DNA from: an uncultured Opitutales bacterium
Lineage (GTDB): Bacteria > Verrucomicrobiota > Verrucomicrobiia > Opitutales > Oceanipulchritudinaceae
DNA length: 34,300 nt
Assembly: GCA_913056355.1 (NCBI GenBank)
Contig: CAJXMX010000009.1
Coordinates: 1 to 34,300 of the forward strand
Direction of reading: 5' to 3'
Numbering within the stretch: the first letter of the stretch is position 1; every line of letters starts with the position of its first letter. The translations under genes were made by a program, and so were the position numbers. The notes under the pieces were generated by a model. The model made no database searches, was not told the origin of the DNA, and saw only the letters and a list, made by a program, of their open reading frames with translations. Positions 18,800 to 34,300 of the stretch are shown here, in pieces.

Positions 18800-18805
18800 G
18801 GATTG

Positions 18806-19561
18806 TCAGCGGGGGGCGCCGCCGCCCGGGAGCCGGGTCCAGAGCGACATCAGGGTTCGGCGGAAAGGAGTCCGGGGCCACGTCCTCATACGCTCCAGGC
18901 GGTGCATCCAGGCCGGCGGCACATAGTGGTTGGAAATGAGGTCCGGCCGGCTGTACAACGGCGGCCGCAGGTCGGGATGAAAGCGCCGGTCCGCCCGGAG
19001 GCGGATTCCCGCCTCATGGAGGAGGCTTCCGATCATGACATCCTCGATACTGACCGATTCGCGATACCGCTTCTCCCCCAGTTTGCGCATCCGGCTGTTG
19101 CCTTTGAACCAGGGGGCGGCGGCGTGCTCCGCAAAGGGCCGGGAGACGACCGCCTGCACGGCCTTGCAGCTCAGCCAGTAGCAGCCGCCCTGGGCGTAGG
19201 GTTCGAACTGGGGCTGGTCCGGAGGGGGATTTCCGGCATAGTCCCCGAAGTCTCCGGAGGCGGCAGCCAGACGCGCGCAATCCAGGTAGGTATCATCGTC
19301 GCACTTGACGAGGGCCCGGAACTCGAGCGTGCGCAGGCAGTATTCCAGCATCCGGTAGCTCTTCTCCGCCAGGTCGGCGTATCCGTCCGGCGCAGACAGG
19401 AGCAGACGATCCTCCTCGATACGGTCCCCGGGGTGGCCGCCTTCGACGTACAGGATCCGCTGGCCCCTTTCCGGCCGTCTGCCCCAGGAGGCCCGGACTG
19501 CGGCCTGCCGGCCCTGACGGTGGGCCTGGCAACTGAGGACGAGGATCAGGAGGTCGGACAT
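18806..19561 (-). CDS. GT31-like (beta-1,3-galactosyltransferase-type) glycosyltransferase
   Basis: A 251-residue protein with the ordered motifs of the Galactosyl_T (GT31) family, GT-A enzymes that use UDP-sugars and a metal. These are RQAAVRASW (W26), GYADLAEKSYRMLEYCLR, VKCDDDTYL (DDD at 88-90, the DxD metal site), YAQGGCYWLSCKAV, and IEDVMIG (173-175). The start at 19561 (MSDLLILVLSCQAH) leaves a 7-nt gap to the upstream GT4. Most GT31 enzymes I know are eukaryotic Golgi proteins with a membrane anchor. This one has no transmembrane anchor and is shorter, as expected for a cytoplasmic bacterial enzyme. Sugar specificity is not readable from sequence. Confidence 0.8.
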   Translation of the reverse strand: MSDLLILVLSCQAHRQGRQAAVRASWGRRPERGQRILYVEGGHPGDRIEEDRLLLSAPDGYADLAEKSYRMLEYCLRTLEFRALVKCDDDTYLDCARLAAASGDFGDYAGNPPPDQPQFEPYAQGGCYWLSCKAVQAVVSRPFAEHAAAPWFKGNSRMRKLGEKRYRESVSIEDVMIGSLLHEAGIRLRADRRFHPDLRPPLYSRPDLISNHYVPPAWMHRLERMRTWPRTPFRRTLMSLWTRLPGGGAPR

Positions 19562-19568
19562 CGGTGGA

Positions 19569-20714
19569 TCAGTGGTTGCGGAAATAACCGGCCAGGCCCA
19601 GCTGGCGGATTTTCTGGCGACGATGGTACATCCAGAGCGGGTACCAGCCGGCAAAGGGCTTCATCTCCGGCGAAGGCTCGACCGCCTCGTGGACGAGGGC
19701 GTCGACCCGTCCGGTGAATTGCCCGAGGTAGGATGTCACGGAACGCGGACCGATGGCCTGCCAGGATTTTTCCCGGTAGGCTGCCCGGTCCGGATCGACC
19801 CAGCGCTGCTCGATTTCCGCAATGACCCCGGCCGCCGCCTTGACGTTTCCCTTCGGATAAAGGAATTCCGGCGACAGGTCGGCCACCCAGTCCTGTCCGT
19901 CATGGAAATCCGGATAGACCGGGATGGCCCCGGCCGCCACCCCCTCGATGAGGGACAGGGGCAGGCCCTCGTAATCGCTCAGGAACAGGATGTAGGTCCA
20001 GGAGAGGAGCGTGTTCCGGTAGGCCTCGCCCTCCAGGTGCTCCAGGAAACGGACCTTGGACCGAAGTCCCAGCTTCTGCTTGAGCGGCTCCAGGTAAGTC
20101 CCGTCTCCAAGGATTTCCATCCGGTAATCGATCCCCTTCTGGTCCAGGGCGTTGAGAAAGCCTGGCAGCCGGTCCAGCCGCTTCTGCTGGATCTGGACGC
20201 GGCCGGAAAACCCGATCACCGGCGGGCGCGGCTTGGGCCGGTTGCGGGCCTCCAGCGGGGGCAGCCGGACCGGCAGGTCGATGGAAAGGACCGGCAGCCG
20301 GTCCGCCCGGCCGAGGCTGCCCAGGATTCCCGCGGCGAGCCGGTCGTTGACGCAGAGGATGCCCCCGCAGTATGGACGCAGCGCGCGGATGAAATGATTC
20401 AGGCCCGGGTAGTCGGAATGCAGATACATCAGGTGCGGCCCCCGCCGCCGGGCGGCATCCAGCCAGTCCAGGGCGTAGCCGTTGTAATGCAGTACGGCCG
20501 CGTCCGGATAAGGAGCCAGGGCCTCCCCGAGCCGCTCAACGCCTTCCCGGACGCGCAGGCCCGGGCGCAGGCCGAGCTGGACCACTCCCGGCCCGGGGTC
20601 ACCCTCCCCGCTCATGGCGATCAGCGGCTCGCCCTTCTCCAGGTGGACGCGGGCGATCCGCTCCATGCCGCCGCCGCAGGGCCAGCGCTTGAGAATGTGG
20701 ATCCGCTTTTCCAT
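19569..20714 (-). CDS. Family 4 glycosyltransferase (GT-B fold)
   Basis: A 381-residue retaining GT-B enzyme. The N-terminal glycine-rich loop is KRWPCGGGMERIARVHL. A MYLHSDYPGLNHFIRALRPY segment lies in the acceptor half. The donor half starts VIGFSGRVQIQQKRLDRLPGF and carries DYEGLPLSLIEGVAAG (E249 and E257, the E-x7-E pair). ATG 20714 (MEKRIHIL) is used; GGAGG lies directly against it, an unusually close spacing. The gene is 14 nt after the GT8-like gene and 7 nt before the GT31-like gene, so it is part of one operon. Substrate is unknown. Confidence 0.85.
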   Translation of the reverse strand: MEKRIHILKRWPCGGGMERIARVHLEKGEPLIAMSGEGDPGPGVVQLGLRPGLRVREGVERLGEALAPYPDAAVLHYNGYALDWLDAARRRGPHLMYLHSDYPGLNHFIRALRPYCGGILCVNDRLAAGILGSLGRADRLPVLSIDLPVRLPPLEARNRPKPRPPVIGFSGRVQIQQKRLDRLPGFLNALDQKGIDYRMEILGDGTYLEPLKQKLGLRSKVRFLEHLEGEAYRNTLLSWTYILFLSDYEGLPLSLIEGVAAGAIPVYPDFHDGQDWVADLSPEFLYPKGNVKAAAGVIAEIEQRWVDPDRAAYREKSWQAIGPRSVTSYLGQFTGRVDALVHEAVEPSPEMKPFAGWYPLWMYHRRQKIRQLGLAGYFRNH

Positions 20715-20728
20715 CCTCCAGGGATTAT

Positions 20729-21427
20729 TCAGGCCAGCCCCCAATCCTGCAACCGTTTGTCGAGGTCGCGCAGCATGACCGCCTTGGAAGCCTGTCCGGC
20801 ATAGTGGACCACCATCGCCTCGCGGCGACGTGCTTCCAGATTCCAGCCATTGCCTCCGTCCGGCATGAAATTGTAAGTGGGATCAAGGACTTCAAGGGGC
20901 AGACCGGCCTGCAGGGAGCGGTAGTTGAGCAGGGTCTGCTCCGGCCAGCGACCCCGGACAAAGGCCTTCCGGTCCATGCGGAAAAGTCCGCGGTGGGAGG
21001 CGTCGAGCACCATCACCCCGGTGTTGAAGTAGCGGCGGTTGCCCTCCGGCAGGGGGCCCAGCCGCGCGGCCCTACGGTCCAGTTCCTCCCGCCCTTTCCA
21101 CGCCTCCCCGCCCAGGTCGTCATAAACACAGCCCAGCCGCCCGGACGGAACCAGCCCCAGCAGGTCCGGACAGCCCGGATGGAGGATGATGTCCGAGTCG
21201 AGGAAGAGGACCCGGTCGAAGCGCTCCAGGATTTCCCGCAGCTGGAACTTTTCCACATGAAACTGCACGCGCCGCTTGATAAGCAGGTTGGGCCGGATCC
21301 GGAAGCGCGGGGTGTCGAGAATGACCAGCTCCAGTCCATGCCGCCTGGCATAGGCCTCGAAAATGGCATGGGTCCGGCATTCCTCCTCCGGAAGCCCGAT
21401 TGCCAATGTGACCAGCGCTTTCTCCAT
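20729..21427 (-). CDS. GT8-like glycosyltransferase (GT-A fold)
   Basis: A 232-residue protein resembling glycogenin/LgtC-type GT8 enzymes. It has VLFLDSDIILH (DSD at 77-79, metal and nucleotide-sugar site), YFNTGVMVLD (FNTGV 134-138), EQTLLN (163-168) and HYAG (208-211, second metal ligand). The order and spacing fit GT8. ATG 21427 was chosen because the frame upstream (open to 21778) runs through the divergent gene and is arginine-rich noise. It is the first gene of the - strand operon GT8, GT4, GT31, GT-like. Its promoter should lie in the 115-nt divergent region. Confidence 0.85.
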   Translation of the reverse strand: MEKALVTLAIGLPEEECRTHAIFEAYARRHGLELVILDTPRFRIRPNLLIKRRVQFHVEKFQLREILERFDRVLFLDSDIILHPGCPDLLGLVPSGRLGCVYDDLGGEAWKGREELDRRAARLGPLPEGNRRYFNTGVMVLDASHRGLFRMDRKAFVRGRWPEQTLLNYRSLQAGLPLEVLDPTYNFMPDGGNGWNLEARRREAMVVHYAGQASKAVMLRDLDKRLQDWGLA

Positions 21428-21449
21428 GCCCCGTCTAGGAGATAGCCTT

Positions 21450-21542: not shown

Positions 21543-22796
21543 ATGGAGACCCTCCCCGGCAATCGATCCGCGGATTCCCTGCCCGCCAGCGCCCGGGCCT
21601 TTTTCACGGAACTCGGGCGCAACGTGGCCGCTCCGCTGCTGGCCACGATGGTCGACTGGATGATCGAGCGGGTCCGCCGGCAGCAGCCGGAAATCCTCCT
21701 CTTCCTGAGCCGGGACGGACGCATTATCCGCGAAGTCTGGGAGGCCCGCTGTCCGCCGGACCTGGCCGGATTGCCCACCCGCTATGCCCTCGCCTCCAGA
21801 CGGGCCCTCCGGGTGGCCTCCCTCGAGCGGATCGACGGCGACTTGCTCCGTCTCCTCACCCACCACGCGGAGGGCTTGCCCTTCCGCGAGCTGTTTGATT
21901 CCCTGCACCTGCCCGGCCAGCGGATCGAGGCGGTCATTCGTGAGCATTCCGCGGTCGATCCCCATGCCCCCTACCACCGCCGCCAGGCGGCCACGGCGGC
22001 CCAGGTCCTGCACCTGCTGGGGCAGGATATCCAACGCCGGGCCGGGGAGGAGCGGGAAGCCTACCTGCGCTACCTGGATTCGCTGGAACTGGACGGGGCC
22101 CGCCGGGTCGGGATCGTCGATATCGGCTGGCACGGTTCCCTGCAGGCGGCCCTGGCCCGGCTGCTGCGCCGGCGGAATCCCGATATCGCCACCCGGGGCT
22201 ACTACCTGGCCCTGTTCGGGGGTGCCTCCAAATGGCGCAGTGACAGGGATTCCATGGAAGGCTGCCTGCTGCAGGAGGGCGAACCGCGGGTCCGCGAAGG
22301 CGAACTGGCCGACTGCGTCGAGCTGCTGGAGTTTCTCTTTTCATCGACCGAGCCCGGGCTGCTTTGTTTCCATGAGAAGGACGGACGGGCGGTCCCGGTC
22401 TTCATGGAAGACCGCCGTTCGGCCTACCAGAAGGAAGCCCTGGACGCCTTGCGGGAGGGAATCCTGGAGGAGATCGGGGAATCCGTCCCGGATGCCGGGG
22501 AGGCCTACCGCAGGTTCCGCCGCCTGGCTTTCCACCCGACCCGCGAGGAGGCGCGGTTCCTGGGTCGACTCCAGGCCCGGCGCGGATTTGGCAAGGCCGG
22601 TCTGCTGCAGCCGTTCGCCCAGCCGGGGAATCCCGTCTTCAACATCCTGCATTGGGGGCGCTTGTACCGGAGCTTCAAGGAAGCCCTCTGGCGCAACGGT
22701 TACTGGGCCGCCCTGAGCCGCCCCGAACGCGCGCTCCTGAGGATGATCAGTCCGGTCGGGACTGCCCGCTTCATCCACACCAGCCGCGGCCGTTAA
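21543..22796 (+). CDS. Stand-alone SRDG-module protein of unknown function
   Basis: A 417-residue protein that I cannot assign to a named family. It is homologous along most of its length to the C-terminal half of the HAD protein at 23704 and to the middle of the fusion at 25695. Shared motifs in order: ELGRNVAAPL near residue 23, LFLSRDG (56-59 SRDG), YALASRRALRVAS (84-92), VDIGWHGSLQ (192-200), RGYYLALF (219), and ELLEFLFSSTEPGLL. The module begins almost at the N-terminus, so the HAD domain is absent. There is no signal peptide. It starts a + strand run with GT2 and HAD-SRDG genes, 41 nt before the GT2. Conserved R, D, W and H residues suggest an enzyme acting in glycan synthesis, which is inference. 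Confidence 0.8.
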   Translation: METLPGNRSADSLPASARAFFTELGRNVAAPLLATMVDWMIERVRRQQPEILLFLSRDGRIIREVWEARCPPDLAGLPTRYALASRRALRVASLERIDGDLLRLLTHHAEGLPFRELFDSLHLPGQRIEAVIREHSAVDPHAPYHRRQAATAAQVLHLLGQDIQRRAGEEREAYLRYLDSLELDGARRVGIVDIGWHGSLQAALARLLRRRNPDIATRGYYLALFGGASKWRSDRDSMEGCLLQEGEPRVREGELADCVELLEFLFSSTEPGLLCFHEKDGRAVPVFMEDRRSAYQKEALDALREGILEEIGESVPDAGEAYRRFRRLAFHPTREEARFLGRLQARRGFGKAGLLQPFAQPGNPVFNILHWGRLYRSFKEALWRNGYWAALSRPERALLRMISPVGTARFIHTSRGR

Positions 22797-22837
22797 TTAA
22801 TCTTGAAACTGCCCCTATCCTCGCAGACCGTCCCGGT

Positions 22838-23707
22838 ATGGCTAAGATTGGCGCGATCATGCGGACAAAAAACCGCCCCCTGCTCCTCAGGCGGGCCCTG
22901 CAGAGTGTCTGCAGCCAGACCCTTGAGGATTGGGAAATTGCCCTGGTCAACGACGGCGGGGACCCGGCCGAGGTGGACCAGCTGGTCGACGCCCTGCCCG
23001 ACCGCCATCGCGGAAAGGTGAAGGTCATTCACCATCCTTCCTCCGTGGGCATGGAAGCCGCCTCCAACGCCGGGCTGCGCGTCCTCGAGTCGAAGTACGC
23101 CATGGTCCACGACGACGACGATTCCCTGCAGCCGGAATTCTTCGCCCGGACCGCGGCCTACCTGGACCAGCCTCCGCATCCCTCGATCAAGGGGGTCATC
23201 ACCCATACCGAGCGGATCATCGAGGTCATCGAGGGGGACCAGGTCCGCCAGGTCCGCACCTATCCCTACAACAACTGGCTGCAGTCCATCAGCCTGCGCC
23301 GCATGCTGGCGGAAAATGTCTTCGCCCCCATAGCCTTCCTCTTCGACCGGGAAGCCTGCCTCGAGGCCGGAGCCTTCAGGGAGGACCTCCCGGTGCTCGG
23401 GGACTGGGATTTCAACGTCCGCTTCCTCCTCAGGTACGAGATCGGGGTCATCCCAGAGCAACTGGCCTTCTACCACGACCGCGAAGGCGACGGCAGCGAC
23501 GACTATTTCAGCTCGGTCCGCGCCAAGGCGCACCTCCACGCCCTTTACGACAACCTGCTCCGCAACGAATGGCTGCGCAAGGACATCGAGGCCGGCCGGA
23601 CCGGACCGGGCGTCCTGGCCAACCAGTCCCTGATGCTCTGGGACCTCTCGTGGGACATCAAGCAGGAGTTGAAGAAGCGCAAGTTCAAGATCTTCAAGTC
23701 GAAATGA
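22838..23707 (+). CDS. Family 2 glycosyltransferase (GT-A fold)
   Basis: A 289-residue inverting GT2-type enzyme without membrane helices. It has AIMRTKNRPLLLRRALQSV, VNDGGD (38-42), GMEAASNAGLRVLES and HDDDDS (92-96, the DxD site). LGDWDFNVRFLLRYEIGVIP provides the later acidic motif. ATG 22838 (MAKIGA) is the family-like start; the longer frame to 22652 overlaps the preceding gene. It is a close paralogue of the first ~270 residues of the fusion at 25695. Its stop overlaps the start of the HAD-SRDG gene (ATGA, 23704-23707), so the two are probably made together as a split version of that fusion. Confidence 0.9.
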   Translation: MAKIGAIMRTKNRPLLLRRALQSVCSQTLEDWEIALVNDGGDPAEVDQLVDALPDRHRGKVKVIHHPSSVGMEAASNAGLRVLESKYAMVHDDDDSLQPEFFARTAAYLDQPPHPSIKGVITHTERIIEVIEGDQVRQVRTYPYNNWLQSISLRRMLAENVFAPIAFLFDREACLEAGAFREDLPVLGDWDFNVRFLLRYEIGVIPEQLAFYHDREGDGSDDYFSSVRAKAHLHALYDNLLRNEWLRKDIEAGRTGPGVLANQSLMLWDLSWDIKQELKKRKFKIFKSK

Positions 23708-25704
23708 AGGACGCCTTCGAGAGCCTCCTGGAGCAGGTCCAAGTCCTGTCCCTGGATGTATTCGACACCACCCTGGGCAGGCTCTGCGCCCTTCCGGACG
23801 ACGCCTTCCTTCTCATGGAGGAAGCCCTCGTGGAGCGGCATGGGGAGGTCATGGAGGGTTTCGGCCGCAAACGCTGCGGGGTCGACACCCGCGCCCGCCG
23901 GCGGGCCTGGGACCAGCGCCAGGCCGAGGAGATCACGCTCCTGGACATTCACACCCAGCTGCTGGAGGAGAATCCGGACTGGCCCTGCACGGTGGAGGAA
24001 CTGTCCGGGCTGGAGATGGAGGTCGAGGAGCAGCTGCTCTATCCCCTCCAGCCGGCCCGCGAGATGATCGCCAAGGCCCGGGACATGGGAAAGCGGATCA
24101 TCTTCGTTTCCGACATGTACCTGCCGCAGGCCTTTTGCGAGCAGTGCCTGCGGGACAACGGATTCGGGGACTATGACGCCTTTTACCTCAGCTCGACGGT
24201 CGGGGTCCTCAAGCACTCCGGCAAACTGTTCGACCATGTCATCGAGCAGCTCGGGATTCCGCCCGGGGAGATCCTCCACGTCGGCGACAATTCCCACAGC
24301 GACGTGAAGCAGGCCGAGCAGGCCGGAATGAAGACCTTTCTGGTCGAGAAAGCCATTACCCGGGTGGACCGCTTTCCCGAAAACCCCTGGAAACCGGTGG
24401 CCGGGAAGGCCGACCGCGATGGCCGGGAAAGCCTGCTCCTGGGCCTCTCGGTGGCCGGATGCCTGCGGGAGGAGCGATTCGAGGATCCGCTCTGGTACCG
24501 CACCGGCTACCAGGTCGGGGGACCGCTGGTCTACGGCTATATCCAGTTCCTGATCCGCAGGATCCGCGGCCGCGGCATCAGGAAAGTCTATTTTCTCTCG
24601 CGCGACGGCTACATCATGAAGCAGGTCTACGAACGGCTGACCAGCGGGCTGGAAGACTGCCCGGAAGCCGATTACCTGTACGCCTCGCGCCGGGCCCTCA
24701 ACTTCGCTTCCATCCGCGAACTGGATGCGAAAACCGAGAACTGGCTGGCCGAGGGAATCCAGCTGACGGTGGGGGACTTCCTGCGCCGCATCGGTCTCGA
24801 TCCGGACCGGCACTTGCAGGCCATCCGGGAGACCGGTCTTTCGGGACCGGAGCACAAGGTTGTCGGCGGATGGGAATACACCCGCCTGCGCCAGCTGTAC
24901 CATCGTATCCTGCCCTCGATCCTCGAGGCCGCGGCCCGGGAACGCGAAACCTACCTCCAATACCTGCGCCACAAGGGCGTCTTCGAGGCCAGCCCGTTCG
25001 TCCTTGTCGATGTAGGCTGGATGACCTCCATCCAGCACTCCTTCGCCAGGATGGTCCGGGAAGTGGATCCGGACCTGACCCTCGAGGGCTACTACCTCGG
25101 CACTTATCCGGAGGCGGTCGAGCGGGCGGACGCCCATTCACGCCATGTGCATTACCTGATGGAATACGGCCAGCCGGCCGAGACCCTGCACATCATCCGG
25201 CACTGCGTCTGCCTGATCGAGTTCTTCTTCGCCGCGCCGGAAAAGACCTTCCTTTACATGGAAGGTGACGCCCGGAACGGCTTCAGGCCGGTCCTGGCCG
25301 GTATCCATGAAAACAAGGACGACCTGCCCAAGCTGGAGCAGATCCACCAGGGCATCCTCGATTACAGCGAAGCGGCCACCGCGGCCACCGGAGGGCGCGG
25401 GCTGGGCATCAAGCCGGCCGAGGTGATGCGCCTGCTGCAGCGGATGCTGGCGGAACCGACCGGGGAGGAGGCCCGCCATCTCGGTGAAATCTGCTACGCC
25501 GACGGCTACGGATCCTACTTCCACCACACCTTCATGGCCCGGCCCTCGGGTTTGCGCAAACTGGGGCTGAGCAAGAAAAAGTGGAAGGCCGAGTTCAAGC
25601 ACTGCCACTGGCCCAAGGGCTACTACATGCGCTTAAGCCCGCTGGAGCGGTTTGTCTTCCGGCTGATGCATCCTTCGCACCGCTTCAGCAAACCCTACGG
25701 CTGA
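23704..25704 (+). CDS. HAD-like domain fused to SRDG module
   Basis: A 666-residue two-domain protein. Residues ~10-225 are HAD-like: motif I SLDVFDTTL (D18, with F at +2 and D at +3), motif II IIFVSDMYL, a lysine region VLKHSGKLF, and motif IV ILHVGDNSHSDVKQAEQAG. A cap domain lies between motifs I and II. Residues ~265-600 are the SRDG module: YQVGGPLVYGY, YFLSRDGYIM (299-302), YASRRALNFAS (327-335), VDVGWMTS (435), GYYLGTY, IEFFFAAPEKTFLYM. The C-terminus is basic and aromatic. It resembles proteins annotated as predicted HAD hydrolases in polysaccharide clusters, but neither substrate nor reaction is known to me. Translation is coupled to the GT2 gene; its 3' end overlaps the convergent fusion gene by 10 nt. 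Confidence 0.85.
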   Translation: MKDAFESLLEQVQVLSLDVFDTTLGRLCALPDDAFLLMEEALVERHGEVMEGFGRKRCGVDTRARRRAWDQRQAEEITLLDIHTQLLEENPDWPCTVEELSGLEMEVEEQLLYPLQPAREMIAKARDMGKRIIFVSDMYLPQAFCEQCLRDNGFGDYDAFYLSSTVGVLKHSGKLFDHVIEQLGIPPGEILHVGDNSHSDVKQAEQAGMKTFLVEKAITRVDRFPENPWKPVAGKADRDGRESLLLGLSVAGCLREERFEDPLWYRTGYQVGGPLVYGYIQFLIRRIRGRGIRKVYFLSRDGYIMKQVYERLTSGLEDCPEADYLYASRRALNFASIRELDAKTENWLAEGIQLTVGDFLRRIGLDPDRHLQAIRETGLSGPEHKVVGGWEYTRLRQLYHRILPSILEAAARERETYLQYLRHKGVFEASPFVLVDVGWMTSIQHSFARMVREVDPDLTLEGYYLGTYPEAVERADAHSRHVHYLMEYGQPAETLHIIRHCVCLIEFFFAAPEKTFLYMEGDARNGFRPVLAGIHENKDDLPKLEQIHQGILDYSEAATAATGGRGLGIKPAEVMRLLQRMLAEPTGEEARHLGEICYADGYGSYFHHTFMARPSGLRKLGLSKKKWKAEFKHCHWPKGYYMRLSPLERFVFRLMHPSHRFSKPYG

Positions 25705-28700
25705 TCGGTCGAGCTGCTGTCCGGCAGCTTCCCGGTGACAAGGATCTTCATCAACTGGCCGCGGTTGCGGAGGAGCGTTTCCATGTAGGCCAGACGCCGT
25801 TGCAGGCGGTCCATCTCCGAATCCAGGCTGGCCTTCTGCCCGGCCATCGCTTCCCTGGTCTGCCGGGTTTCCTCGCGGGAAGCGGCCAGGTCGGATTCGA
25901 GGCCCATCCTGAAGGCGGTCAGTTGGGCCAGTTCGGCGTCCAGGCCGGATTTCTCGGAGGCGATCTGCTCTATCTCGGCCTTTAATTCGGCGATGGTGCC
26001 TTCCCGGGCCACGACCTCCTTCTGCTTTTCAGCCCATACCTCCTCGGATTGCTTGATCTTCCATTCCAGGTTGCCCTTGACCTTGTGAACCTCGCGCTTG
26101 AGCTCGTTGACCTCCTCGTCCAGCTCCTTGACCCGCCTCTGAAAGGCGTCGCGGGCCTTTTCCATCAGGCGGGCCTGACCCAGGTTCTCCTCCTTCTCCT
26201 TCCAGAATTCCTCGGCCTGCTGGATCTTGAAGCTGAGGTCGCCACGCAGCTTGTTGATGGTTTTCTCCATGTCCGCGCAGCGTTCCTGGAAGTGCCCGGA
26301 CTCCCACTTCAGGCGCTCCTTCTCGGTCCACAGGTCGTCCGCCTGCCGCGTCTTCCACTCGAGGTCGGCCTTGAGGTCGGCCACCGTGCGGTCCTCGCGC
26401 ACCTTGAGGCGGTCCAGGATGAAATTGCGCTGGTTTTCCGCCAGGGAGGAAAGGAAGCCGCGCTTCCAGTTGGAAGCCCGGTAGGCCCGCATCAGTTCCT
26501 CGCGGTCCATGTCCGGCTCGATGGGCTCCACCAGGGGCTTGTAGATCTCCAGCCCGAAACCCTCCGAATGGAGCATCCCGCCCCACTCGGCCACTTCCGC
26601 CGGGCTGGGCTCGCGCAGGATCCGGTGCAGGACCAGGTTCAGGTAGGCGAAACCGTCCTGTGGGCCGGTGGACGGCAGGCCGCCCTCCAGGATACTGCGG
26701 AGGAATTCCCCGGCCCCGGTCCAGAGGGCTTCCTGCTGTTCTATTGAAAATCCGCTACGCACCTGGTCCGAGAATCGCGGCTCGAATCCGTTTTCCCCTT
26801 CCGCGAAGTCCAGCAGGGTGGCGTACGGGGCGGCGCTCAGGGACTCGATCCAGTTGACCGACTCCCGCACCAGCAGGGCGTGCTCCTCCGGCTTTTCCAG
26901 GTGGACGAAGTAGGACTTGACCTCCACCGGCAGCTCTCCCGGATCGGCCGGACTCCAGGTGCCGAAGAAATAACCGCGGACCCGCCGGGGCTTTTCGATC
27001 TCCAGAAGCCGGGCCACCGCCCGCACACAGGAGGCGTTCCAGCCGATGTCCACCAGGGCGCAGTCGTCGGGTTTGTAGTCGACCTGCCCGAGGGCCTGGA
27101 GCAGGCCGGCCCGGTCCCGCGCAAACAGCTCCTCCAGCTCCGGCTTGAGGAGCAGGAACATGTTGCGCAGCCGCGGACCGAATTCCGGGCGCAGGTAGTT
27201 GCCGCCCGCTTCCCGGGTCACGACCAGGTCCGGATCGGCAAACCCGACGTGCTCCATGATTTGCAGGTGGTCCTCGGCCCGCAATCCCGTGCGGTCGATG
27301 AAGTCGCGGACCCGCAGGGAAGGATTCGGTGTCAGGAGAAACTTCAGGGCCTCCTCGCTCAAGGAACCGAAGGAGGCGAAATTGAGAACCTTGCGGGAGG
27401 AGTGCAGGTAGCTGAACTCGATGCCCAGGGACGACTTTTCGTTGAGCAACTGCAGGGCCTTTTCCCAGTAGTAACCGTCGCGCCCAAGCAGGATCAACTT
27501 GCGCACACCGTCCTTGCGGGCCTGCCCCAGAACCCATGTCATGAAAAACAAATACAGGGGCCCGGCCACCTCGCGGCCCAGCCGCCGGGAACGGTCCGCC
27601 GCGGGATCGACCGGTTCCAGCAGGCCCAGGCGGGTCACCTCGCCGATGGTCCGCAGGCTGAGCAGGTCCCCGCGGTTGTACTGGTAGGGCTCGACCTCGG
27701 AACACCAGGGCGTGTAGTTGAATTCCCGCGACCAGTGGAAGGCCTGCCAGCCGGCTTCCCAGCAGCGCAGGCAGTCGCTGTGGAAATTGTCCCCGACATG
27801 GAGGATACGTCCGGGCTCGACCCCGAGGCGGGCGGCCACATCCGGCTGCAGGGTGCCGTCATGCTTGGAGAGGTGCCGTTCGCAGGAGACATGGACCTCA
27901 GGATCCTCGAATCCGCATCCCTCCAGGAACTGGCGGATGGTCGGGCTGTCGTGGTACATGTCCGAGACGAATATCACCTTCCTTCCCTCCTCCCGGCAGG
28001 CCTTGTACAGCTCCAGCCAGCGCGGATCGGCGTACAGCATCTCCTTCTCGATGCGCAGCTCCAGTTCCATCAGCCGGTCCCGGTCCAGCGGGTCCAGCTG
28101 TAGCCACTTTCCCGCTACCCGGTAGATTTCCGAAAGGGTCACCTCGGGCTGGAAATCCAGGCGGGCCCGCTGCTCCGCCTCCTCGCGGACCAGGGCGTAG
28201 GCCCGGGGCGGAAGCTTCAGCTCCCGGACGGCCCGTTGCTCGAGGAGCAGGAACACGTCCCCGGGCCGGTGGCAGCGGCGAAGCAGGACCGTATCGAACA
28301 CGTCCAGCGAGAGGACCTCAAAGTCGTAGTCGGCCCGGAAATCCGGCAGCGGCCGGGGAGCGGCGGGCTCGTCCGGGCGGAGGTTGAACGGCAGCATTTC
28401 CCCGCCGTCGGGCGGCGGGAACTCGATCCCGTCGATATCGCCCACGGCCCGCTCGGACCGGTCCAGGGCCTCCCGCCAGTAGGTGTTTTTCATCCGGTTG
28501 AGCATCCGGCGGTGCGTATTGCGGCTGCGGGTCACGGTGTTCCCGTGGCTGCCGTATCGCCAGTGGTAGTAGGCGTGGGCGGTGGGAATGACCGTGATGT
28601 CGAAGAAGCGGAGAAAGCGGAGGTTGAAATCGTGGTCGCCGAGGACATCGAATTCCTGCCGGAAGCCACCCACCCGCTCGTGGGCGGCGCGGCGGTAGAG

Positions 28701-29210
28701 GAAGGCGATCGGGGGGAAAATATTCCGGTGCCGCATTTCCCCGAGATTGACGTAGTCAAACGGGTAATACGGGTTCTGCTTGAGACGGACTATCCGGCCG
28801 TCGAGGCAAATCTCCTCCGTGACCTGGGTGGTCTGGGTCACCACCCCCTGGATGCGGCTGTGCGGACCCTGCTCCTCAAGGCAGCCGACGGTCTTCTCCA
28901 GAAAGTCCGGGTACCAGCTGTCATCGTCGTCATGGATGACCACGTAGACGCTTTCGACCGCGGCCAGCCCGGCGTTGGAGGCGTTCTGCATGCCCCGGGA
29001 CCGGTCATGGTGGACCACGCAGACGCGGTCCTGGTAGGCGTCGGCGAAGGTGGTCAGGAGGTCCTCCACCAGGACCTTGTCGCCCCCGTCGTTGACAATG
29101 ACATGAACCCAGTCGGAAAAGGTCTGGTCCAGGACCGACTGGATGGCCCGCTTGAGGAAGACCGGCCGGTCCTTGGTCCGGGTGATGATGGCGACTCGGG
29201 GGTGTTTCAT
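25695..29210 (-). CDS. Four-part fusion: GT2 glycosyltransferase, HAD-like, SRDG module, coiled coil
   Basis: A 1171-residue protein with four parts. GT2 occupies ~1-270 (ITRTKDRPVFLKRAIQSV, VNDGGD, IHDDDDS, LGDHDFNLRFL). The HAD-like domain is at ~295-510 (LSLDVFDTVLL near residue 300, VIFVSDMYHD, ILHVGDNFHSD near 472). The SRDG module is at ~555-880 (REVAGPLYLFF, LLGRDGYYW near 577, SSRKVLNFAS, VDIGWNAS near 720, IESLSAAPYATLL). The final ~230 residues are a long charged coiled coil with repeats. All GT2 acidic motifs are present, so sugar transfer is likely; the other parts are uncharacterised. There are no membrane helices. It corresponds to the GT2 gene plus the HAD-SRDG gene on the other strand, fused and extended. 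The methyltransferase gene lies 25 nt upstream. Confidence 0.87.
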   Translation of the reverse strand: MKHPRVAIITRTKDRPVFLKRAIQSVLDQTFSDWVHVIVNDGGDKVLVEDLLTTFADAYQDRVCVVHHDRSRGMQNASNAGLAAVESVYVVIHDDDDSWYPDFLEKTVGCLEEQGPHSRIQGVVTQTTQVTEEICLDGRIVRLKQNPYYPFDYVNLGEMRHRNIFPPIAFLYRRAAHERVGGFRQEFDVLGDHDFNLRFLRFFDITVIPTAHAYYHWRYGSHGNTVTRSRNTHRRMLNRMKNTYWREALDRSERAVGDIDGIEFPPPDGGEMLPFNLRPDEPAAPRPLPDFRADYDFEVLSLDVFDTVLLRRCHRPGDVFLLLEQRAVRELKLPPRAYALVREEAEQRARLDFQPEVTLSEIYRVAGKWLQLDPLDRDRLMELELRIEKEMLYADPRWLELYKACREEGRKVIFVSDMYHDSPTIRQFLEGCGFEDPEVHVSCERHLSKHDGTLQPDVAARLGVEPGRILHVGDNFHSDCLRCWEAGWQAFHWSREFNYTPWCSEVEPYQYNRGDLLSLRTIGEVTRLGLLEPVDPAADRSRRLGREVAGPLYLFFMTWVLGQARKDGVRKLILLGRDGYYWEKALQLLNEKSSLGIEFSYLHSSRKVLNFASFGSLSEEALKFLLTPNPSLRVRDFIDRTGLRAEDHLQIMEHVGFADPDLVVTREAGGNYLRPEFGPRLRNMFLLLKPELEELFARDRAGLLQALGQVDYKPDDCALVDIGWNASCVRAVARLLEIEKPRRVRGYFFGTWSPADPGELPVEVKSYFVHLEKPEEHALLVRESVNWIESLSAAPYATLLDFAEGENGFEPRFSDQVRSGFSIEQQEALWTGAGEFLRSILEGGLPSTGPQDGFAYLNLVLHRILREPSPAEVAEWGGMLHSEGFGLEIYKPLVEPIEPDMDREELMRAYRASNWKRGFLSSLAENQRNFILDRLKVREDRTVADLKADLEWKTRQADDLWTEKERLKWESGHFQERCADMEKTINKLRGDLSFKIQQAEEFWKEKEENLGQARLMEKARDAFQRRVKELDEEVNELKREVHKVKGNLEWKIKQSEEVWAEKQKEVVAREGTIAELKAEIEQIASEKSGLDAELAQLTAFRMGLESDLAASREETRQTREAMAGQKASLDSEMDRLQRRLAYMETLLRNRGQLMKILVTGKLPDSSSTDQP
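26022..26375 (-). repeat. Three-copy protein repeat in the coiled coil of the fusion protein
   Basis: The ~20-residue segment LKADLEWKTRQADDLWTEKE (from residue 946) recurs as LRGDLSFKIQQAEEFWKEKE (from 988) and VKGNLEWKIKQSEEVWAEKQ (from 1044). Offsets are 42 and 56 residues, both multiples of seven, so the heptad phase is kept. A buried tryptophan and the W-x-E-K ending are invariant in all three. Confidence 0.75.
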
Positions 29211-29235: not shown

Positions 29236-30291
29236 TTAACTTTTCAAGCCCTCCATGAACCGGTCGCGTCGCTCCCGCGATTGCTTTTCGCGCGACTCGC
29301 CGGCCAGAAGGGCCTCCTTGCGCAGCAGGTCGAGCTCGGCCCGCATCCGCTCCAGTTCCTGCCGCAGTTCCTTTTCCCGGGCGGACTGGGCCTGTTCGAT
29401 CTTTTCCAGGAAATCCTGTTCCGGAGCCTTTCCCCGGGCCAGTTCGTGGTTGTACTTGCCCCAGCTGAGGACGTTGGTGAAGCGGCGCTTGAGATCGCCA
29501 TGGAGAAAGAACAATTCCCGGAACCGGGCCATGATGCGCTGCAGCTCGGCCCCGGCCTTGCCGGAATCGGATGAGAAATTGAGCCAGGCCTGCCGGGAAA
29601 AGGCGACCGGCACCCCGCCCGGCTGCGGCAGCTCCGCGTCCGAGGCCAGGAAGAGCCAGGTGTCGGCCCAGTCCGGGGCGTGCCCGAAGTCGAGCCGCAT
29701 CTGGCGCTGCTCCCCGATCCGGACCACGTCGGCGGGGGATTGGCCCTCCGGCTCGATCAGCGAGCCCAGGTGGAAGCGCTGGCGATACAACCGGTAATGA
29801 CCGAAGGCCTTGCCCAGCAGCGCGGAAAGGTTCTCGCGGTTGAAGTACTGCAGGTGGAACTCGTTATCCTCGGTCCAGTCGGTCTCGCCCGGAACGGACC
29901 CGATGAGGATCCCGGATTCACCCAGGACCCCGCGGATGCCCTGCAGGGCCCGGGCCGGATCCTCCACGTGTTCCAGGGTCTCGAAGCAGACCACCCGGTC
30001 AAAGGTGCCCAGGTCCAGGGAGGGCAGGTCCTCGATCAATCCCGCCTCAAAGCGGACCCGCGGGCTTTTCCAGAGTTCGCGGCACCGGTCGATGGTCGCT
30101 TCATCGCGGTCCACCCCGACCACTTCGGAGGCATTGGCCTCCGCCATCATGCCGGCCCCGAACCCGTGTCCGCAGGCCACGTCCAGAACCCGCTGCTCCT
30201 CCACCAGGGGCTGGATCCAGGCGTATCGCAGCAGGTGGTCGAGGCAAAACCGGTCCTCCCGGCTGAAGGGATCAATGCGTTCAAGGGCCAT
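29236..30291 (-). CDS. SAM-dependent methyltransferase with C-terminal coiled coil
   Basis: A 351-residue protein. The class I methyltransferase domain has motif I VLDVACGHGFG (37-45), D61 in VVGVDRDEATID for the SAM ribose, and FDRVVCFETLEHVEDPARAL as motif II/post-motif. A middle region (about 180-285) follows, then a highly charged coiled coil of ~60 residues (EKIEQAQSAREKELRQELER and onward). Its start lies inside the end of the Wzt-type gene (11-nt overlap), so the two are translated together. In characterised ABC-dependent O-antigen systems a coiled-coil methyltransferase such as WbdD caps the chain and sets its length. The same role is suggested here by layout; no kinase domain is visible. 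Confidence 0.87.
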   Translation of the reverse strand: MALERIDPFSREDRFCLDHLLRYAWIQPLVEEQRVLDVACGHGFGAGMMAEANASEVVGVDRDEATIDRCRELWKSPRVRFEAGLIEDLPSLDLGTFDRVVCFETLEHVEDPARALQGIRGVLGESGILIGSVPGETDWTEDNEFHLQYFNRENLSALLGKAFGHYRLYRQRFHLGSLIEPEGQSPADVVRIGEQRQMRLDFGHAPDWADTWLFLASDAELPQPGGVPVAFSRQAWLNFSSDSGKAGAELQRIMARFRELFFLHGDLKRRFTNVLSWGKYNHELARGKAPEQDFLEKIEQAQSAREKELRQELERMRAELDLLRKEALLAGESREKQSRERRDRFMEGLKS

Positions 30292-31627
30292 CTTGCGGGC
30301 TGGTTGAAAGGTTTTCGATCACGCAGTTTCGGACAGGCAGAGGAGTCAGGCCCCAGAAAGGCTCGGGACCGGAGACTGCCAACTTGGCACAGTCCCATAG
30401 ACAGTCAAGGTCGTACCAGTCGTCGGTGGTGTGGTTGATGGCCAGGCCGATGACCAGCAGGTACAGCTGCGGACGCAGGTCGAGGCGGATCTCAAATCGC
30501 ATGGTCCGCCGGTCACCCGGCCGGGTAACGGAGATGGATTCCCCGGTGAAGAAGGAATGGTAGCCGCCGATGAGCTGGCCGGAGCGGTCCCGGAATCCGA
30601 ATCCCAGCTGGAAATCCTCAACCACCTCGTGGGCCAGCACCTCCACCTCGACTTCCAGCCAGTCCCCCACCCCGGCCCCGCCCTCGATGTCCGGACGGGT
30701 CCGTACGGACTCGATGGTCACCCGGCCGTCGCCGGTCCGTTCCTTGAAGTCGAGGAGCAGCAGTTTCCAGGCTTCCTCGCGGGATGCGCTGTCCGCCTTG
30801 CTGTCCCCGCCCGCCTTCTTTTCCTCCTCATTGATGGCCCGGTTGATGACCGGCTTTTTCCGATGCAACCGGTAATAGAGGTTGGCCGCCTCGGAAACAT
30901 CGGCATCGCAGACCATGTTCCCCTCGTCGAGGACGATTCCGCGCTGGCACAGGCGCTTGATCATGAACATGTCGTGCGACACGCAAAGGAAGGTCTTGTC
31001 CCGCGAGACATATTCCTCCAGCCAGCGGACGCAGCGGGACTGGAAAAAGGCATCCCCCACGGAAAGGGCCTCGTCGATTATGAGAATGTCCGGATCCACC
31101 GCGGTGATGACGGCAAAGGCCAGCCGCAGGCGCATCCCCGTGGAGTAGGTCCGGACGGGCTGGTTGACGAAGTCGCCGATGTCGGCAAAGGACAGGATAT
31201 CGTCCAGCTTCTCCTCGATCCGGCTCCGGGAAAGGCCCAGCATGGCCCCGTTGAGGTAGATGTTCTCCCGCCCTGTGAAATCGGGATTGAAGCCGGACCC
31301 CAGCTGCAGGAGGGCCGACATGCTTCCCCGGACCGCCACCTCCCCGGTGGAGGCCCGCAAGGTTCCCGCGATGACCTGCAGGAGCGTCGACTTGCCGGAT
31401 CCGTTGCGCCCGACAATGGCTACCGACTCGCCCGGATGAATGGTGATGTCCAGCGGCTTGAGGGCCTCGAAATGCCGGAAGCGGCCATGCCGGACCCCGT
31501 AACGGCCCATCAGGGCGTCCCACATGACCACCCAGGAGCCGAGAAAGGTATCCCGCCCGAGGACCGGCATCCGGTAGACCTTGGAAACGTTCTCTAAGTG
31601 AATGGCAGGCCGGTTCGCGGTATCCAT
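30281..31627 (-). CDS. wzt: Wzt-type polysaccharide ABC transporter ATPase with C-terminal sugar-binding domain
   Basis: The ATP-binding subunit of an O-antigen/teichoic-acid-type exporter. The 448 residues contain Walker A GRNGSGKS (73-80), Q-loop LLQLGSGFNP, signature YSTGMRLRLAFA (161), Walker B ILIIDE (181-186) and switch H218. After a charged linker (~275-295) comes a beta-rich C-terminal domain of ~150 residues. It matches the layout of Wzt proteins, in which that domain recognises the modified non-reducing end of the finished glycan before export. The gene overlaps the methyltransferase by 11 nt. The permease gene is divergent, 152 nt away, rather than in the same operon. Confidence 0.93.
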   Translation of the reverse strand: MDTANRPAIHLENVSKVYRMPVLGRDTFLGSWVVMWDALMGRYGVRHGRFRHFEALKPLDITIHPGESVAIVGRNGSGKSTLLQVIAGTLRASTGEVAVRGSMSALLQLGSGFNPDFTGRENIYLNGAMLGLSRSRIEEKLDDILSFADIGDFVNQPVRTYSTGMRLRLAFAVITAVDPDILIIDEALSVGDAFFQSRCVRWLEEYVSRDKTFLCVSHDMFMIKRLCQRGIVLDEGNMVCDADVSEAANLYYRLHRKKPVINRAINEEEKKAGGDSKADSASREEAWKLLLLDFKERTGDGRVTIESVRTRPDIEGGAGVGDWLEVEVEVLAHEVVEDFQLGFGFRDRSGQLIGGYHSFFTGESISVTRPGDRRTMRFEIRLDLRPQLYLLVIGLAINHTTDDWYDLDCLWDCAKLAVSGPEPFWGLTPLPVRNCVIENLSTSPQDGP

Positions 31628-31765: not shown

Positions 31766-31779
31766 CTGTGGCTTTCCGG

Positions 31780-32604
31780 ATGCAAACCAAGCCGACCAGA
31801 CCCAGACCTCCCGCCAGCTGGGCCCGGACCCGGGAGCTGCTCCACCAGCTGTCGGTCCGGGAGATTTCCGAGTCCGTCAAGGGCAGCACCCTCGGTGTGC
31901 TCTGGCTCGTTTTCAGCCCCTTGCTGAGCATGACGCTCTACGTCATCGTCTTCGGGCTGCTTTTCGGCGGTTCCTTCGGCCAGGTCGAGAACGAGTCCCC
32001 GCTGAGTTACGCCATCGGGATCTACATCGGGCTGTCCGTGGTCAACCTGGTCAACGAGACTATCGTCAAGTCCACCAACAACCTGTTCAACCACAGCATG
32101 CTGATCAAGAAGGTGGTCTTCCCGCTCGCCCTGCTGCCGGTGGTCCAGGTCACCGGGACGGCCTTCAAGCTCCTCATCAACACCTCATTGTGGCTCCTCA
32201 TGGGAATCTTCTTCGGCAGCGTCCTCGGCTGGCAGATCCTCTTTCTCCCGCTGATTTTCCTGCCCCTGCTGGCCATGGCCCTCGGCCTGGCCGCCCTGAT
32301 CAGCTCCCTCAGCGTCTATTTCCGGGATATTCAACAGCTGACCCAGGTCATGACCCAGATTGTCTTCTGGTCCAGCGGCGTTTTCTACAGCTCCCAGAAG
32401 GTGATGCAGGTTCCCCAGATCTGGGCCGTCCTGAAATGGAATCCGGTCCTCCTGGCAATCGAGAACATCCGCGACATTGTCCTCTGGGACCTCGCCCCCA
32501 GCCTGCCCCAGATCGGCTACCTCTACCTGGTCGGCTTCTTCCTCCTGGCCATCGGATTTCTCGTTTTCAACCGGCTCCGCAGCGGATTCTCCGATTTTCT
32601 CTAG
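31780..32604 (+). CDS. wzm: Wzm-type polysaccharide ABC transporter permease
   Basis: A 274-residue ABC-2 type inner-membrane permease that forms the glycan channel with Wzt. The cytoplasmic N-terminus ends in an interface segment (LLHQLSVREISESVKGSTLG). About six membrane helices follow, including LGVLWLVFSPLLSMTLYVIVFGLLFGG (approximate span), the region around LSYAIGIYIGLSVVNLV, LLPVVQVTGTAFKLLIN, LPLIFLPLLAMALGLAALI and LYLVGFFLLAIGFLVF. The WSSGVFYSSQKVMQVPQ loop is typical of the family. ATG 31780 is used; GTG 31768 would add four residues. No Shine-Dalgarno is seen. It is divergent from the wzt gene. Confidence 0.92.
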   Translation: MQTKPTRPRPPASWARTRELLHQLSVREISESVKGSTLGVLWLVFSPLLSMTLYVIVFGLLFGGSFGQVENESPLSYAIGIYIGLSVVNLVNETIVKSTNNLFNHSMLIKKVVFPLALLPVVQVTGTAFKLLINTSLWLLMGIFFGSVLGWQILFLPLIFLPLLAMALGLAALISSLSVYFRDIQQLTQVMTQIVFWSSGVFYSSQKVMQVPQIWAVLKWNPVLLAIENIRDIVLWDLAPSLPQIGYLYLVGFFLLAIGFLVFNRLRSGFSDFL

Positions 32605-32801: not shown

Positions 32802-33611
32802 ATGAATACCATGAAAAAACTTATCGCAGCCTTGCTTATCGGCTCGCTTTTCGCGTTCTCCGTGAACGCCCAGACCCCACCGGACGCCACGGTTGACCAG
32901 GACGGTAACCTGGTCCTCAACCCGGGCACCGAAGACGAAGTCACCATCCCCGTTCCGGAAGGTACCGTGGAAACCGACGGCAGCCTCACGGTCGGCGGGA
33001 ACAACATCCCGGCCCCGAATGCCACCGTCAATCCCGACGGCAGCATCACCGTTGACGGCAACACCATGATGGTCCCGGACCTGCCCAAGGGCGGTGCCTT
33101 CCCCGTCAGCTGGCTCGGTTCCGACCTCTACGACTACCAGCCGAATGTCCCCCCGGACCAGGACCAGAACTACTTCAGCTTCACCTTCAAGGACCTCCGC
33201 CACTGGGCCAACGACAACTGGTTCTGGTTCTATGAGTGGAAGGCCGCTGTGTACATCAACCCGAACACCGGTAGCCGCAACCTCGACGAAGGTGTCTGGT
33301 GCTACACCCGTAACCTCTTCCCCGGCCAGACCGAAGGAACCTGGTTCTACCTTGCCCGCAAGTACAACTGGCACGACCTGCGTGACAGCAAGCCCTACGA
33401 TGGAATTCCGGACCTCGGCGACGGCGAAGCCGGCGGCCAGCAGTTCGAAGGTTCCCTCTACGTCAAGAACCCGAGTGGTTATGACACCAAGGGTCAGGGC
33501 TGGTTCGTTCTCGGTGAATACCCGGACGGCAACTGGATCAAGCGCCTCGGCGATTCTTCCGCCCCCTGGGTCAAGCTGACCGATCCGGTCGCTCCTTCCC
33601 CGGCCAACTAA
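32802..33611 (+). CDS. Secreted aromatic-rich protein with N-terminal DGS/TV repeats, function unknown
   Basis: A 269-residue exported protein. KKLIAALLIGSLFAFSVNA is a clear signal peptide with a V-N-A cleavage site. Mature residues ~25-90 hold three related units (ATVDQDGNLVL..., GTVETDGSLTVGGNNIPAP, ATVNPDGSITVDGNTMMVP), likely short beta hairpins. The remaining ~170 residues are very rich in W, Y and F (NWFWFYEWKAAVY, GWFVLGEYPDGNWIKRLG) with one cysteine. I know no family for it. Codons such as GGT, CGT and GTT are commoner than in neighbouring genes, and a strong terminator follows, which suggests abundant monocistronic expression. ATG 32811 is an equally possible start. Possibly a surface or matrix protein associated with the exported glycan (inference from position). 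Confidence 0.85.
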   Translation: MNTMKKLIAALLIGSLFAFSVNAQTPPDATVDQDGNLVLNPGTEDEVTIPVPEGTVETDGSLTVGGNNIPAPNATVNPDGSITVDGNTMMVPDLPKGGAFPVSWLGSDLYDYQPNVPPDQDQNYFSFTFKDLRHWANDNWFWFYEWKAAVYINPNTGSRNLDEGVWCYTRNLFPGQTEGTWFYLARKYNWHDLRDSKPYDGIPDLGDGEAGGQQFEGSLYVKNPSGYDTKGQGWFVLGEYPDGNWIKRLGDSSAPWVKLTDPVAPSPAN

Positions 33612-33719: not shown

Positions 33720-34300
33720 ATGCTCAGCAGATTCATCAACAAATTCAGGCAACCGCCGGTGCGTTACATCTTCATCATCTCGGCCATGCGCTCCGGCTCG
33801 ACGCTGGTCCAGCATATCGCCGGGCAGCAGGACCATGTCCTCAGCGCCGGGGAAACCAAGATCGAGTACGTCGAGCCCGGCAAGCTTGAGGAACTCCGGC
33901 AGCATGTGTTCGCCTACAATGCGATTCCGGGAGCGGACCAAAGCCGCCCCGGCTGGGTGTTCCTGGAGAAGTGCGTCCACGACCGCTACCTTCCGGAGAT
34001 GACTCCCATCGAGCGGCCGGACATGCGCTTCATCTTCATCCTGAGGCGGCCGCATGCCTCGCTCTCAAGCCTGATGGAGTTGAAGAACTGGCCCTACACC
34101 GAATCCCTTGAGTCGGCGGCCTGGTACTACAACGAACGCCCCATGCAAATGGTCCGTCTGGCCAACCAGCTGAAGCGGCCGGAAAATGCCTACTTTGTCA
34201 CCTATGAGGATTTTCTGGAAAACACGGAACGTCATCTGCGCGGCTTGTCAGCCTTCCTGAAAATGCCGGACCCCTTGAAGCAGGAATACCGGAAACAGAA
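33720..34300 (+). CDS. Sulfotransferase family protein (3' truncated by window edge)
   Basis: The frame is open from ATG 33720 to the window end, with 193 residues visible. The N-terminal P-loop-like PAPS-binding motif is IISAMRSGSTLVQHIAG (residues 19-35, including SGST), the 5'-phosphosulfate loop of sulfotransferases. RFIFILRRPHASLSSLMELKN (about 103-123, with the basic R109/R110 and S114) matches the 3'-phosphate-binding segment. Such enzymes move sulfate from PAPS to a hydroxyl or amine, often of a sugar. Position beside an ABC glycan exporter suggests a glycan substrate, but lipid or protein cannot be excluded. It is preceded by AGGA 3 nt before the ATG, a weak ribosome site. Confidence 0.82.
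   Translation, partial: MLSRFINKFRQPPVRYIFIISAMRSGSTLVQHIAGQQDHVLSAGETKIEYVEPGKLEELRQHVFAYNAIPGADQSRPGWVFLEKCVHDRYLPEMTPIERPDMRFIFILRRPHASLSSLMELKNWPYTESLESAAWYYNERPMQMVRLANQLKRPENAYFVTYEDFLENTERHLRGLSAFLKMPDPLKQEYRKQ

Follow-up and report, generated by a model that had tools for sequence, protein, structure and literature searches.

Combining a chain terminator with a coiled-coil ruler and a carbohydrate-binding module (CBM) on Wzt is a known form of glycan-length control, and the strategy of a coiled-coil terminator with a Wzt-CBM has been described as widespread (PMC11231755). In E. coli O9a, WbdD is a methyltransferase-kinase ruler that operates with a Wzt carrying a cap-binding domain, while the O8 enzyme, which forms a methyl cap and has no kinase, also lacks the O9a residues R203 and H132 and methylates a hydroxyl (PMC3482155). 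WbdD is described as having a C-terminal membrane and polymerase-recruiting region (PMC11231755, PMC3482155). In the systems described in PMC11231755, it is the terminator, and not the polymerase, that the coiled coil carries distally. K. pneumoniae O7/O4 unite a coiled-coil protein, a Wzt-CBM and a PRPP-dependent ribofuranosyltransferase in one export system (PMC11231755). The Wzm-Wzt transporter of A. aeolicus recognizes a 3-O-methyl cap, with Trp362 of Wzt as the cap lid (PMC9445017). In PDB entry 7SHG and in Bcs3 of H. influenzae b, a HAD phosphatase is followed by a PRPP-dependent transferase, whose PRPP pocket consists of an SRD loop, an SR pair and an Asp or Glu on a later strand (PMC10299916).

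We analyzed a locus of an uncultured Opitutales bacterium within a DNA stretch of 34,300 nucleotides (contig CAJXMX010000009.1), hereafter the window. Its overall plan is that of the E. coli systems; however, this logic appears to be realized here by a methyltransferase (MT) that falls outside the WbdD_O8 clade, and the coiled-coil rod is mainly on the polymerase.

Organization of the export block

The export block comprises the following features:
25695..29210, minus strand: candidate polymerase, 1171 aa (PF00535, 68 bits; PDB 7SHG 4e-11, Bcs3 3.5e-9)
29236..30291, minus strand: class I SAM methyltransferase, candidate chain terminator, 351 aa (PF08241, 65 bits)
29281..29415, minus strand: short coiled coil of the MT, residues 293–337 (COILS window 28; AlphaFold helix 291–329)
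30281..31627, minus strand: Wzt, 448 aa, ABC ATPase carrying a cap-binding domain at its C-terminus (can be aligned with the O8 and O9a Wzt of E. coli over its full length)
30347..30742, minus strand: Wzt_C carbohydrate-binding domain, residues 296–427 (PF14524, 58 bits; profile match to 8DKY/6O14)
31768..32604, plus strand: Wzm, ABC-2 permease, divergent from wzt (PF01061, 49 bits)

The first-pass annotation of this DNA had proposed an MT gene overlapping the gene for a Wzt-type ATPase. Both reading frames are real: they share 11 nt, show coding-like GC3 and encode proteins with Pfam domains. The order wzt-MT-large polymerase is that of E. coli O8 (wzt-wbdD-wbdA). Unlike in O8, wzm is divergent here, and the polymerase is a fusion of GT2, phosphatase and ribosyltransferase modules with a rod of its own. 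A Wzm homologue of 68% identity adjoins wzt in genome G002.

Wzt and its cap-binding domain

Wzt contains an intact ATPase (ABC_tran, 82 bits) and, as previously annotated, an additional C-terminal domain, identified as Wzt_C. For comparison, E. coli WbdD and Wzt sequences were taken from strains IAI1 and HS, which we assume to be of serotypes O8 and O9a, respectively; product names in these records belong to the O8 and O9 families. The label WbdD for their enzymes reflects our reading of the gene order, since the records name them class I SAM-dependent methyltransferases. The window Wzt can be aligned end to end with both transporters (34% identity over 383 residues for O8 and 35% over 437 for O9a), and its best PDB match is A. 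aeolicus Wzt (5e-62). A profile of ten cap-binding domains (CBDs) likewise matched the A. aeolicus CBD best (2.5e-25), followed by 2r5o (1.1e-9) and 5hno (1.9e-5), presumably the O9a and O12 CBDs, respectively. The C-terminal domain may bind the capped end of the chain.

Trp404 of Wzt aligns with the cap-lid Trp362 of the A. aeolicus protein (PMC9445017). The lid residue is also a tryptophan in O8 Wzt and a methionine in O9a Wzt. We rejected it as a marker of methyl caps, since the tryptophan is also present in many Wzt_C domains that have no detected MT in their neighborhood.

The methyltransferase and its short coiled coil

The AlphaFold model of the MT (19-row alignment, pLDDT 73, pTM 0.64) places the methyltransferase fold at approximately residues 14–217. 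Confidence is low across most of residues 188–286, after which the tail forms two helices (residues 291–329 and 332–350; block pLDDT mostly 70–86, with 55 for the last block). VIA fold comparison returned Z-scores of 17–19 to generic class I MTs. As a test of kinship with WbdD this comparison is uninformative, and the absence of WbdD among the 50 matches listed excludes nothing. A phmmer search against the PDB found no WbdD entry among 28 matches at E ≤ 0.01.

The earlier annotation of an MT without a kinase domain holds: a Pfam search identified no kinase family, and the ∼74 residues between the end of the core (∼217) and the start of the coiled-coil helix (291) in the model leave no room for one. 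The MT thus resembles O8 WbdD in its arrangement of a kinase-less MT followed by a short coiled coil. A methyl-phosphate cap made by a cryptic kinase has a precedent in K. pneumoniae O7, where 223 residues between the MT and the coiled coil are reported to hold one (PMC11231755). It is very improbable here, given the much smaller space and the absence of O9a phosphate-binding residues R203 and H132 in a rough alignment.

The coiled coil had been annotated as ∼60 residues long. Its presence is confirmed, but at a reduced length of 31–45 residues, since COILS (with a reimplemented scoring matrix) places it at residues 300–330 (window 21) or 293–337 (window 28). When the 66-residue tail was shuffled 500 times, 10 and 17 of the shuffled sequences reached the observed score, so composition accounts for much of it. 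Nevertheless, a coiled coil of 25–37 residues (COILS window 21) occurs in all five members of the MT family, the window protein included, and we therefore regard it as real but short. Full-length relatives of the MT were found in four of 54 other genomes, each with the coiled coil. Only 14 residues follow it in the window MT, which therefore has no C-terminal anchor or recruitment region; neither a membrane helix nor a polymerase-recruiting region of the WbdD type was identified at its C-terminus.

These dimensions bear on whether the MT is terminator and ruler in one, measuring with its own coiled coil as WbdD does. The conservation of the coiled coil throughout the family agrees with such a role, as does the likewise short COILS-scored stretch of WbdD_O8 (residues 259–294). 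However, ∼130 residues follow that stretch in WbdD_O8, and the coiled coil of the O9a enzyme is far longer than that of the window MT. With no anchoring or recruiting region on the MT, and with a long, length-variable coiled coil that ends in a conserved basic helix on the polymerase instead, the coiled coil of the MT fits poorly as the ruler suggested by the first-pass annotation, and we consider this role unlikely.

Relationship of the methyltransferase to WbdD

Similarity of the MT to WbdD is weak, amounting to 32% identity over 79 residues for the O9a enzyme. In a 36-row tree, the window MT family constitutes a separate group (98/93), with two MTs from a different family of the same order next to it (95/96), and by this placement the MT is outside the WbdD_O8 clade. 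Four other MTs of the order join WbdD_O8 (98/85 and 99/87, within a 100/99 group). The branch of O9a WbdD is very long, and its placement is unsure. To this extent the tree does not support the first-pass reading of a WbdD-like pair. Considering both the weak similarity and the separate grouping, the MT-Wzt pair would work like WbdD_O8-Wzt without the MT being a WbdD.

The four MTs grouping with E. coli WbdD_O8 are located beside Wzt_C loci (L069, L070, L073 and L075), so true relatives of O8-type WbdD do occur in the order. Two further MTs of the order, each directly after wzt, have long coiled coils extending to residues 540 and 445 (L031, 3581–5314, minus strand; L035, 3898–5328, minus strand), and their layout comes closer to that of classical WbdD than the layout of the window MT does.

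Linkage of methyltransferase and Wzt across the order

Members of the MT family adjoin the polymerase at all five of their loci, four directly and one with a single intervening gene, and the MT is directly after wzt in four of the five. The exception is genome G007, where wzt lies 4.1 kb away and on the opposite strand. The G007 polymerase is found in two overlapping frames (L023, 12288–15750, plus strand), due to either a broken gene or an assembly error.

Among 372 genomes of the order, Wzt_C was detected in 128, and a match to the MT profile (E ≤ 1e-12) in 35. This profile was built from 14 MTs, most of which adjoin a wzt, and it may therefore favor wzt-linked MTs. Neighborhoods were counted for 115 of the best 116 ranked Wzt_C places with surroundings; L034 and L036, which were below the rank cut and fetched for their MT, were left out, and G304:C125 was missed. 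At 21 of these 115 loci the MT is directly downstream of wzt on the same strand, compared to two with the MT directly upstream on that strand. It is fused to Wzt at three loci, directly beside wzt on the other strand at one, and further away (151–4101 bp) at six. No profile-detectable MT was found within ∼4 kb at 81 loci, and at the one remaining locus no NBD was detected. The three fusions, each from a different genome, are proteins of ∼870 aa in which a Wzt ATPase and Wzt_C are joined to two MT-like domains:
L025, 9461–12064, minus strand
L032, 1638–4247, plus strand
L033, 3232–5847, minus strand

The downstream bias and the fusions are evidence that MT and Wzt are functionally connected. 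Since the gene order also matches that of O8, the two proteins likely form a capping and export pair of the O8 (WbdD-Wzt) type. In this respect the first-pass annotation, which had read them as a capping and recognition pair, agrees with the synteny, the fusions, the full-length O8-like Wzt and the lack of a kinase.

Most Wzt_C loci, however, manage without a detectable MT of the kind represented by the profile, and other caps must therefore exist. The same 81 loci favor an alternative in which the MT acts on an internal, side-chain or reducing-end sugar, Wzt_C reads a different terminus and the two genes merely share an operon; the MT fold is generic, and not every sugar MT has to terminate a chain. 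The asymmetry of 21 downstream against two upstream positions and the fusion in three genomes speak against such an arrangement, and we regard it as rather unlikely, although less so than a ruler on the MT.

Polymerase and ribosyltransferase modules

The neighboring GT2 fusion with a long coiled coil was correctly recognized in the first-pass annotation, as the 1171-residue protein contains a GT2 domain and a scored coiled coil. That label missed two enzymatic modules: the GT2 domain (residues ∼1–270) is followed by a HAD phosphatase (∼295–500), a PRPP-dependent ribose-5-phosphate transferase (∼501–930) and the coiled-coil tail. The middle part matches PDB 7SHG, annotated as 'Ribofuranosyl transferase', and Bcs3. 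Related genes are found next to the polymerase:
21543..22796, plus strand: ribosyltransferase-type paralogue without HAD phosphatase (active-site motifs preserved in an alignment with the other two modules)
22838..23707, plus strand: separate GT2, paired with the next gene (PF00535, 73 bits; start picked by eye within the ORF 22652–23707)
23704..25704, plus strand: HAD phosphatase and PRPP-dependent ribosyltransferase, 666 aa (7SHG 9e-21, Bcs3 1e-19)

The row at 21543–25704 (plus strand) thus encodes a GT2 together with a HAD phosphatase-ribosyltransferase and a ribosyltransferase-type protein that lacks the phosphatase. With the polymerase, the locus has three ribosyltransferase-type modules, of which two are accompanied by a HAD phosphatase. 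A profile of five phosphatase-ribosyltransferase proteins matched 7SHG at 1.8e-45 and Bcs3 at 1.1e-40. The active-site signatures correspond, with the PRPP-pocket residues kept in the alignment (SRD, SR and VD motifs) except for a serine to glycine change in the polymerase fusion. Judged from sequence, both CrpP-CriT/PRP-gPRT modules are present with their PRPP-pocket residues, and their putative activity is the transfer of ribose-5-phosphate into the glycan. The glycan probably contains ribofuranose. In contrast to 7SHG and Bcs3, the module of the polymerase is preceded by a fused GT2 and followed by a coiled coil built of repeats. The window and K. pneumoniae O7/O4 share coiled-coil, Wzt-CBM and PRPP-dependent ribofuranosyltransferase modules, differently distributed over the proteins: the coiled coil is on the terminator in K. 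pneumoniae, whereas the long one of the window is on the polymerase (PMC11231755).

The coiled-coil rod of the polymerase

Two features were mapped in the polymerase tail:
25761..26390, minus strand: long coiled coil, residues ∼941–1150, with three copies of a DLxWKxxQ-type motif
25725..25778, minus strand: basic C-terminal helix, residues 1145–1162, conserved in aligned relatives

The rod, of ∼200 residues, lacks proline and scores as coiled coil in several stretches. Its motif copies start at residues 949, 991 and 1047, at spacings of 42 and 56 residues, and the best internal 20-residue match has 11 identities, compared to a maximum of 10 in 100 shuffles. Spacings in relatives are 42 and 42, 49, 77 and 49, 49, and 49, so that, with the two of the window, nine of nine are whole heptads; the three single spacings of 49 are not independent, since they come from one genus. 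The polymerase coiled coils of that genus also contain 42-bp (14-residue) tandem repeats in differing copy numbers (4.3, 5.9 and 6.7):
L022, 391–569
L173, 3633–3879
L174, 288–570

In that genus the distance from the first motif to the end of the protein is 168, 203 and 196 residues. Similar 14-residue units were seen by eye in the polymerase coiled coil of L175 (5442–8660). In two relatives, the tail has an identity of 34–36%, compared to 53–71% for the rest of the polymerase. The basic C-terminal helix is kept despite this divergence, and possibly contacts the membrane.

The rod provides what a ruler needs, a heptad-register spacer that changes its length by whole units. This register is no proof of a ruler, because any continuous coiled coil must keep it. 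The polymerase head would occupy the distal end of the rod, opposite to the arrangement in described rulers (PMC11231755), so that either a ruler would need a different geometry or the rod may only tether and assemble. In favor of a scaffold for polymerase, MT and membrane that measures no length are the reversed orientation, the differing rod lengths among relatives and the rod-bearing polymerase with 14-residue units in genome G008, where no MT of the window family was found at E ≤ 1e-12. Length changes by whole heptads and 14-residue units argue against a mere scaffold, although this constraint is common to any continuous coiled coil; we consider the scaffold a real possibility, short of probable. 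Our preferred, tentative reading is that chain length is set by the rod of the polymerase and not by the coiled coil of the MT. The titles and abstract openings of the literature searched describe no ruler on a ribofuranosyl polymerase. If the ruler idea is correct, the natural rod variants, differing by whole heptads or 14-residue units, are a ready-made length series with which to test it.

Strict coupling of rod and MT was considered and rejected, as G008 is an exception. In genome G286, the polymerase fusion has no coiled coil, and the same MT profile search found no MT of the window family.

Proposed mechanism

We propose that wzm, together with wzt, MT and polymerase, forms the polymerize-terminate-export core of an ABC-transporter-dependent surface glycan. 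The GT2 module of the polymerase would add a sugar and the PRPP-dependent module ribose-5-phosphate, from which the HAD phosphatase would strip the phosphate so that growth continues. The MT would O-methylate a hydroxyl at the non-reducing end and thereby stop growth. The methylated end would be the mark bound by the Wzt C-terminal domain, such that mainly finished chains are exported. Chain length would be set mainly by the polymerase rod, with the catalytic head held at a fixed distance from the basic C-terminal helix, while the short coiled coil of the MT may oligomerize or dock onto the polymerase complex. The account draws on the domains, ribosyltransferase catalytic signatures, synteny, fusions and coiled-coil repeats observed here, and we judge the chances of the whole (polymerization, methyl cap, rod-set length and export by Wzt) to be about even. 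More speculatively, the ruler may have moved to a GT2-phosphatase-ribofuranosyltransferase rod that evolves by 14-residue units, with a non-WbdD MT as the capping enzyme and a Wzt that exports capped chains only. The reading predicts ribofuranose in the glycan.

Flanking genes

A row of GT8-, GT4- and Galactosyl_T-like sugar-transferase genes occupies 17702–21445 (minus strand) and includes a 365-aa protein without an assigned family (17702–18799). On the other side of the block, the gene at 32802–33611 (plus strand) encodes a protein without an assigned family whose start resembles a signal peptide; a homologue (56% identity) adjoins wzm in G002. It is followed at 33720–34298 (plus strand) by a gene of the sulfotransferase family (PF13469), truncated by the contig end, which might contribute a further modification of the glycan.
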